This document shows, one piece after another, positions 2,378 through 2,946 of a stretch of 64,000 bases of DNA (positions within the stretch are counted from its first letter, which is position 1; each line of letters starts with the position of its first letter). This DNA is from Sutterella wadsworthensis 2_1_59BFAA. GTDB taxonomy: Bacteria; Pseudomonadota; Gammaproteobacteria; Burkholderiales; Burkholderiaceae_F. The translations under genes and the position numbers were made by a program. Below the pieces are notes generated by a model. It had not been told where the DNA came from. It saw only the letters and a list, made by a program, of their open reading frames with translations, and made no database searches. The stretch is from positions 62,001 to 126,000 of the forward strand of contig NZ_JH815517.1 of assembly GCF_000297775.1 (NCBI RefSeq). Direction: 5' to 3'.

Positions 2378-2407
2378 TTGCGACGAAGTGCCTCGGACGT
2401 GTATATT
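2378..2407 (+). promoter_or_regulatory. Sigma-70 promoter of the 2.4-kb small RNA unit
   Basis: TTGCGA (2378-2383), an 18-base spacer and TATATT (2402-2407) match the sigma-70 consensus reasonably well. Transcription would start near 2414, just ahead of the cluster of hairpins described next. No start codon with a ribosome-binding site follows closely. Confidence 0.6.
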
Positions 2408-2413
2408 AATTCG

Positions 2414-2586
2414 ACAGCATGAAGAGATGAGGACTTTCCTAAAAGCCCTCACGCCAACCTGCCCGCCTCCGGGCAAGGTGGTGGCCTCCGCGGGAGGCCA
2501 TGTGGCCGGTAGCTCATCGCGCACCGACAAACATACGGAGAATGGCAATGCCTCTCGACATGCGTGTACGCTGCGGGAGGCTTTTT
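2414..2586 (+). ncRNA. Candidate structured small RNA or leader RNA, unidentified
   Basis: About 173 nt lie between a good promoter and an intrinsic terminator, and they contain successive hairpins. TGAGG (2428-2432) pairs with CCTCA (2447-2451). TGCCCG (2460-2465) pairs with CGGGCA (2470-2475). TGGCCTCC (2482-2489) pairs with GGAGGCCA (2493-2500). CGGT (2507-2510) may pair with ACCG (2523-2526). The terminator hairpin comes last. No convincing reading frame lies here. I looked for the conserved cores of 4.5S RNA, tmRNA and RNase P RNA and found none, and the ends do not pair as in 6S RNA. It could be a free regulatory RNA, or an attenuated leader of the AbrB-like gene 100 bases downstream. 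The family is not recognised. Confidence 0.5.
2550..2586 (+). terminator. Intrinsic terminator of the small RNA unit
   Basis: GCCTCTCG (2550-2557) pairs with CGGGAGGC (2574-2581), including one G-U pair, and encloses an inner GCGT/ACGC hairpin (2562-2571). TTTTT (2582-2586) follows. A second stem further down, GCTTTTTCG (2580-2588) with CGAAAAAGC (2628-2636) plus TCAGG/CCTGA, shares only the last two bases and could form in read-through transcripts. Confidence 0.7.
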
Positions 2587-2685
2587 CGCATCAGGACCGT
2601 AGCTTCATCGAGGATGAGGCCCCTGACCGAAAAAGCTCCGCGGCATGCACATCCATCAACATTTATCTGCATGAAGGAGAAGCAT

Positions 2686-2946
2686 ATGTCGCATCGTCTT
2701 ACCATCAAGGGGCAGGTCACGATCCCCAAGGAAATTCGTGACTTTCTCGGACTCGAGGAAGGCTGCTCCTGCGTGGAGTTCGTCGTTGAAGCCGACGGCA
2801 GCGTCAGCGTGCGCAAGGCGGGCGAAAAGCCTCGTTCCAGTCGTTCCTCCCGCACTTCCTCCGTTCAAACCGTGCGCAAACCCGTGCACGGTGTTCGCAC
2901 GCGCGCCCATGGCGGCGTTCTCGCCCTGCTTGCGGGCGGTCTCTGA
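2686..2946 (+). CDS. Small AbrB/SpoVT-MazE fold DNA-binding protein
   Basis: This is an 86-residue protein. The first ~50 residues form a swapped-hairpin AbrB/SpoVT domain (RLTIKGQVTIPKEIRDFLGL, then CVEFVVEADGSVSV), the fold used by transition-state regulators and by MazE-type antitoxins. The rest is a basic, Ser/Arg-rich tail (KAGEKPRSSRSSRTSS) ending in a hydrophobic stretch (GGVLALLAGGL), which is unusual for the family. The ATG at 2686 is chosen because AAGGAGA lies 5 bases upstream. There is no toxin gene next door, so it is more likely a stand-alone regulator than half of a toxin-antitoxin pair. Its position after the structured RNA suggests possible control by that leader. Confidence 0.75.
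   Translation: MSHRLTIKGQVTIPKEIRDFLGLEEGCSCVEFVVEADGSVSVRKAGEKPRSSRSSRTSSVQTVRKPVHGVRTRAHGGVLALLAGGL

Follow-up and report, generated by a model that had tools for sequence, protein, structure and literature searches.

A stretch of 64,000 nucleotides from Sutterella wadsworthensis 2_1_59BFAA (the window) carries a SAM-I/IV riboswitch with a terminator that is likely to control a VapB-like AbrB-domain protein, itself most likely an activator of the methionine regulon. When SAM is low, antitermination would allow the regulator to be made, and methionine uptake and synthesis would be turned on. Comparison between genomes supports the assignment of the riboswitch to its family and its covariation, the linkage to the gene, and an operator that co-occurs with the regulator; the family, the riboswitch-gene linkage and the operator at metQ genes are the robust parts, and we infer that the RNA binds SAM, in which direction it switches, that the protein binds DNA and that it activates. 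Most riboswitches control enzymes or transporters. The riboswitch here appears to gate a transcription factor, so that the metabolite signal would reach a whole regulon, and if this is true the protein is a candidate methionine-uptake regulator for a common group of gut bacteria.

What identifies the leader? A preliminary description of the window had noted a promoter, four hairpins and a strong terminator, recognised no RNA family, and proposed a covariance-model search of Rfam and a check for compensatory changes. The promoter is present: a sigma-70 type TTGCGA-18-TATATT on the plus strand, from 2378 (start of TTGCGA) to 2407 (end of TATATT), with a probable start site near 2413; a promoter scan found two promoter-like sites between 2200 and 3200, against a mean of 0.2 in shuffled sequences. 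The leader (2406-2592) folds more stably than its shuffles (z -2.45, equalled by 2 of 200). The family had been overlooked, as the Rfam search places positions 2412-2544 of the plus strand in the SAM-I/IV aptamer family RF01725 with 43.4 bits, exceeding the gathering score of 41.1 by 2.3 bits only, and the hairpins are P2, P3, P4 and P5 of this aptamer (P4 by eye). A threshold of E up to 1 gives no second RF01725 match in that genome; an SAH riboswitch match there scores 26.5 bits, under the cut-off of 37. With the same threshold, 18 of the 67 genomes of the family match RF01725, 13 over the cut-off and the weakest, G057, partially with 24 bits, and in an order-wide sample of 399 genomes 29 match at E up to 0.01.

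The structure was compared across 19 Sutterellaceae loci, the nineteenth being that of G053, which a P3-loop insertion hides from RF01725; nested pairs came from the Rfam model and were placed by hand, with the pseudoknot, on a MAFFT alignment. The 31 pairs are formed in 90.4% of cells, and both sides have changed in 68 cells against 23.0 in shuffles, a signal lost on sliding the partners; genome relatedness inflates the significance of this and all other shuffle and permutation counts. The conserved P1-P3 core (CCAACC, AAGGUG) is present and supported by covariation, with two-sided changes in P1 (2417-2421/2499-2503, plus strand), which is expected to close the aptamer with SAM, and in P2 and P5; six of the nine P3 pairs are invariant across the 19 rows. 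In the pseudoknot of the SAM-IV kind, between the P3 loop (2467-2471) and the 3' tail (2536-2540) on the plus strand, four of five pairs have changed on both sides (12 such cells, 3.7 in shuffles). Helices and pseudoknot show the compensatory changes that it had been proposed to look for. The covariance-model match, the core sequences and the SAM-IV-type pseudoknot are shared with SAM-I/IV as given in the available text of Weinberg et al. 2010 (PMC2864571). The gene differs: here the riboswitch lies 5' of a DNA-binding regulator gene, whereas at other Burkholderiales loci the genes are metK-, metY- or carbonic-anhydrase-like (by eye). Some SAM-I variants sense spermidine instead, according to the available part of PMC10853860.

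How might the leader switch? The strong terminator is borne out as an intrinsic terminator at 2550-2586 of the plus strand (-19.7 kcal/mol), with arms 2550-2557/2574-2581 followed by U2582-2586, and a hairpin with a T-run stands at the matching place in most relatives (by eye). A simple terminator scan, with a loop limit of 8 bases, missed it and called a terminator 3' of the AbrB gene. A predicted antiterminator (2414-2567, plus strand) pairs the P1 5' strand with the 5' arm and loop of the terminator (2414-2416/2565-2567, 2417-2421/2559-2563 and 2424-2427/2553-2556). Over 16 non-redundant loci, P1 5' strands pair with their own terminators at a mean of -11.4 kcal/mol and with swapped ones at -8.8 (0 of 5000 permutations), means that include G013 and G057, where the segment was cut wrongly, and G062, whose terminator is doubtful. 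An antiterminator made from the P1 3' strand was rejected, there being no preference for the own terminator (1656 of 5000 permutations). Classical SAM-I switches use the P1 3' strand in the antiterminator, whereas here the 5' strand is predicted to serve.

P1 is compatible with the terminator and incompatible with the antiterminator, which points to an off-switch. With SAM bound, P1 would be closed and the transcript ended by the terminator; without SAM, the P1 5' strand would take the terminator's 5' arm and loop, giving read-through into the regulator gene. In the window, the ligand-free antiterminated fold (-73.2 kcal/mol) and the P1-plus-terminator fold (-71.3 kcal/mol) are only 1.9 kcal/mol apart, so that bound SAM could be enough to favour termination; both SAM binding and this direction of switching in the window's leader are what we infer. 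A terminated leader of about 174 nt would be expected at high SAM, and could give a band of the size that had been predicted.

The second stem reported beyond the terminator exists, with its position slightly shifted: the post-terminator hairpin spans 2570-2644 of the plus strand (2570-2576/2638-2644 and 2579-2588/2628-2637), reuses the terminator's 3' arm and U-tract, and contains in its 3' arm the ribosome-site complement CUCC (2636-2639). The 2570-2700 segment folds with z -3.06, equalled by 1 of 200 shuffles. The ribosome-binding site of the regulator gene is AAGGAG at 2674-2679, plus strand. That the unit has no coding frame was not strictly right, since the list of open reading frames has frames across it, and a predicted frame from 2500 continues in frame into the regulator gene. 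A long inverted repeat at 2338-2400, 3' of an rhlE-like gene, includes the -35 of the riboswitch promoter; it is probably the rhlE terminator, and scores in Rfam as a sub-threshold mir-722 match.

The gene downstream of the leader (2686-2946, plus strand) encodes an 86-aa AbrB-domain regulator, VapB-like and toxin-less, that matches TIGR01439 (38.5 bits, cut-off 28.3) and PF04014 and is assigned by NCBIfam to the AbrB-family regulators. A small AbrB-domain gene lies directly 3' of the RF01725 match on the same strand at 18 of 18 loci (17 relatives and the window), after a gap of 127-289 nt that is largest at the truncated match; all the encoded proteins have RLTIKGQV close to the N-terminus. 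A riboswitch without a gene was rejected, as the regulator gene is there in each correctly oriented locus. The preliminary description had weighed a ligand- or protein-sensing leader against a new stand-alone small RNA. The RF01725 match, the covariation and the same gene type at 18 of 18 loci favour the ligand-sensing leader of the AbrB-like gene, and the idea of a new stand-alone RNA gives way to a known family with a gene at each locus examined. A trans-acting RNA, with the downstream gene read from its own promoter, would fit the strength of the terminator, from which a short transcript is expected, and trans-acting RNAs derived from SAM riboswitches are known in Listeria; it is nevertheless highly improbable given the constant position and orientation of the regulator gene and the presence, in 16 of the 18 loci, of a SAM-II-like element at that gene's ribosome site.

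This second element, GGAUUU...AUUGCCG...CGGCUAAANAGGAG, which we take to be SAM-II-like, lies between the terminator and the start codon in most relatives, and overlaps the ribosome site in 17 genomes while remaining sub-threshold in Rfam. An alignment of 18 rows, its structure set by hand, was used to build a model, R1. Both sides of a pair have changed in 33 cells against 10.2 in shuffles, mostly in an extra hairpin and P1; P1 is paired in 88.9% of cells, with two of four pairs changed on both sides, and the P2 pseudoknot in 94.4%, with two-sided change in only one sequence. Own P1 halves form 4.9 pairs against 3.6 when swapped, a weak control because 48% of swaps reach 4. At E below 1e-9, R1 matches 19 of the 67 genomes, always 5' of the regulator gene, and G062 among these was outside the training set; weaker matches lie elsewhere in other genomes, the best (4.4e-6) in G035. 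Both switches occur in 17 genomes (counting G053), SAM-I/IV only in the window's genome and G058, and the SAM-II-like element only in G052 and G055; no R1 match was found in the window, the rest of its genome or G058 at E up to 0.1. A known Rfam family for the element was sought and rejected, as a scan of 18 loci with a limit of E 1 did not report it. A narrow scan of one relative's locus (L022) with RF00521 gave 9.3 bits against a gathering score of 36, SAM-V scores were also sub-threshold, and 12 other Burkholderiales loci reached at best 24.1 of the 36 bits.

The element has the GAUUU, UUGC and GCUAAA motifs (by eye), the P1 helix and a putative P2 pseudoknot as in SAM-II and SAM-V (RF00521, RF01826); the relatives' version has one more hairpin, which covaries and is placed between P1 and GCUAAA, and no such element was found in the window. 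In most relatives the pseudoknot would gate translation as well, after the terminator has gated transcription. The window and G058 have in common a long hairpin that is built in part from the terminator's 3' arm and contains the ribosome-site complement, and in the window's genome this plain hairpin switch may stand in for the absent SAM-II-like element, a replacement that for both genomes is a guess. The tandem order, SAM-I/IV then SAM-II, is not new, as two examples appear in the available text of a review (PMC9481103). The same order is found in 17 Sutterellaceae genomes, with the terminator first and the ribosome site second; compared with those reviewed examples, the window has no second element, the relatives' element is sub-threshold with an extra hairpin, and the target is a regulator. 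Outside the family, 12 of 26 loci (L117, L119, L121, L123, L124, L125, L127, L128, L130, L132, L133 and L142) have SAM-I/IV followed by a SAM-II-like element below Rfam thresholds, some with an intervening gene; the genes 3' of them are, by eye, metK-like (L124), O-acetylhomoserine sulfhydrylase-like (L128) and carbonic-anhydrase-like (L132, L133). In one other family of the order, SAM-I/IV with a T-rich terminator-like stretch lies just 5' of metK-like genes (L134-L136, L139-L141).

Where might such a regulator come from? We fetched 58 loci with LTIKGQVT proteins, 33 of them outside the Sutterellaceae genera. GTATTAC or its complement lies within 120 nt of the protein's own start in all 33 (background 21 of 990), and the next frame is PIN-like by eye in 26; six of six picked from these are PF01850, and a PIN pattern was present within 300 nt in 20 of the 21 VapB loci tried. 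The own-promoter motif and the PIN-like neighbours suggest that the outside homologues are mostly VapB antitoxins with an adjacent vapC. The Sutterellaceae regulator shares with VapB antitoxins the AbrB-fold domain, the LTIKGQVTIPK motif and the operator core GTATTAC; it differs in riboswitch or leader-peptide control, in its predicted role as activator of metabolic genes, and in that no PIN-like motif was found within 900 nt downstream (0 of 18 riboswitch-linked loci) and no operator self-site within 120 nt of the gene start (0 of 18). Its autoregulation via GGTATTAC is thus not supported; a self-site lies within 300 nt 5' of the aptamer in one of 18 loci, and the abrB promoter has no perfect inverted repeats with arms of 6 or more. 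In a tree of 73 columns, few enough to make it weak, the Sutterellaceae proteins cluster together (97/92) and are separated from 21 outside homologues, the exception being the gene of G024, placed among the VapBs. Close protein matches in the family are confined to genera g1 (11 of 12 genomes), g4 (10 of 10, one gene being truncated where its contig stops) and g15 (5 of 5). An Rfam scan of 20 of the 33 outside loci found no riboswitch, and R1 gave no convincing match in all 33 (best 13.7 bits). A defence-system reading was rejected, with no PADLOC hit.

A reasonably likely history is that an antitoxin was domesticated in the Sutterellaceae: toxin and autoregulation would have been lost and GTATTAC specificity kept, while the protein became an activator of methionine uptake with its input rewired to RNA sensors, mostly SAM-I/IV and SAM-II-like riboswitches and, in others, a Met/Cys leader-peptide attenuator. 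If true, the path from antitoxin to metabolic activator could be traced here, since the relatives, the operator and the lost partner are all visible. No paper linking a SAM riboswitch to an AbrB/VapB regulator was found by title and abstract start, in a search that left subscription journals mostly uncovered and so does not prove absence.

The proposed targets carry the operator. Of 76 metQ genes in 16 regulator-carrying genomes, 60 (27 of 32 plus 33 of 44) have the core GGTATTAC in the 600 nt 5' of them, and each of these genomes has at least one such metQ; the other 16 genes have no core within 600 nt, and three of the 76 had under 310 nt to search. In six regulator-less genomes the core occurs at one of 16 usable metQ upstream regions (17 regions, one with only 2 nt; 10 further genomes had no metQ), and in random windows at 10 of 620. 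Comparing the first 32 genes with the 16 regions by Fisher's test gives 1.9e-7, relatedness ignored. In the window's genome there are four metQ genes that score above the family cut-off, two of them with no core within 600 nt, and four sites at one mismatch or less to TTGMGGTATTACC, the reversed-pattern control giving one. Two of the sites stand before metQ genes; one is 2.1 kb before a third metQ, one of the two with no nearby core (the other of the two has no site), at the start of a presumed metNIQ operon (metN and metI by eye); and one lies about 108 nt upstream of a MetE-like gene (NF005085, 492.7 bits). A MetE-like gene of the NF005085 family in G054 also has a one-mismatch site. Sites number 11 against 6 for the reversed control in G058 and 6 against 2 in G054, so the one-mismatch sites of these genomes are partly chance; three of the four exact sites of G058 are at metQ or metN-like genes. 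At L263 (C1:1107280) in G058, an exact operator and a weak SAM-II-like match (25.2 bits) are separated by about 60 nt, with no recognisable methionine gene nearby. G045 and G046 have three metQ genes in a row with the core before each (L291, L292, L297, L300, L315, L316), and up to nine metQ genes occur per genome.

In our proposal the regulator would bind GAGGTATTACCTC-like sites 5' of metQ, metNIQ and the MetE-like gene and turn these genes on. Its DNA binding is predicted, the link between protein and operator being one of correlation and homology. This indirectness leaves room for an unlikely alternative, that the riboswitch acts as described and the AbrB-like protein has another regulon, while the GGTATTACC sites near metQ are bound by a different methionine regulator; any other regulator distributed in this way would fit, and further genes will share the three-genus distribution of the close regulator matches. 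Antitoxins of the VapB kind normally bind their own promoters, and the independent homologues, most of them PIN-adjacent, have the same core in theirs without exception, which argues for the AbrB-like protein as the one that recognises it. So does G059, a same-genus draft genome (89% complete) that has no match to the gene and has the site at 0 of 2 metQ genes.

Does the regulator activate or repress? GGTAWTACC at one mismatch or less is found in 31 of 35 upstream regions of metQ, metN and MetE-like genes, and dropping one near-duplicate left 30 regions. Candidate -10 boxes, taken as consensus matches (4 of the 30 sites have none and three have two), number 29 and start at these distances after the operator centre: 29 nt (5), 49-51 (8), 59-61 (4), 70-73 (6) and elsewhere (6). 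The spacing has a period near 10.5 (R 0.75), and none of 20000 uniform draws was as strong. Helical phasing of operator and promoter is known for activators such as CRP, and this spacing suggests that in gut bacteria of the Sutterella type the regulator activates genes for methionine uptake. Activation also fits the logic of the switch, in which low SAM would lead to synthesis of the regulator and so to methionine uptake. AbrB-type antitoxins are usually repressors of their own promoters, and this general knowledge favours a quite unlikely reading in which the protein represses methionine uptake, or SAM turns the switch on; against repression, the operator-to-(-10) distances fall in activator-like helical clusters with the operator clear of the candidate -10, and against a SAM-on switch stands the compatibility of P1 with the terminator rather than the antiterminator. 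An activator of this kind would serve the same methionine pathway as MetJ, MetR, SahR and the metXZ RNA element, as far as the available text of PMC4239095 describes them; it differs from these in being an AbrB-type protein with a different operator, SAM being sensed by an RNA upstream of the regulator.

A third input is seen where the regulator genes have no RF01725 or R1 match, namely those of G012, G015, G044 and G047 and second copies in G045, G046 and G048. These seven loci (L097, L100, L101-L105; at most five distinct sequences are independent) have, by eye, a short frame with many Met and Cys codons (e.g. DSMCMCMCQM) and a strong terminator 5' of the gene. Such leaders look like ribosome-mediated attenuators with methionine as the signal, and their presence at other orthologues and second copies points to the same methionine signal. 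A limited literature search found no matching paper for a Met/Cys leader attenuator before such regulators. The second copy in G056 (L107) and the VapB-like gene of G024 (L108) have neither leader type, and in G014 the contig ends at the regulator gene, so that its leader cannot be judged. Because the RNA inputs are of two dissimilar kinds, SAM riboswitches at some loci and Met/Cys leader peptides at others, the proposed signal is open to direct test. A manganese (yybP-ykoY) riboswitch match of 43.9 bits, just below the cut-off of 45, lies at 1717-1854 of the G048 locus L014.
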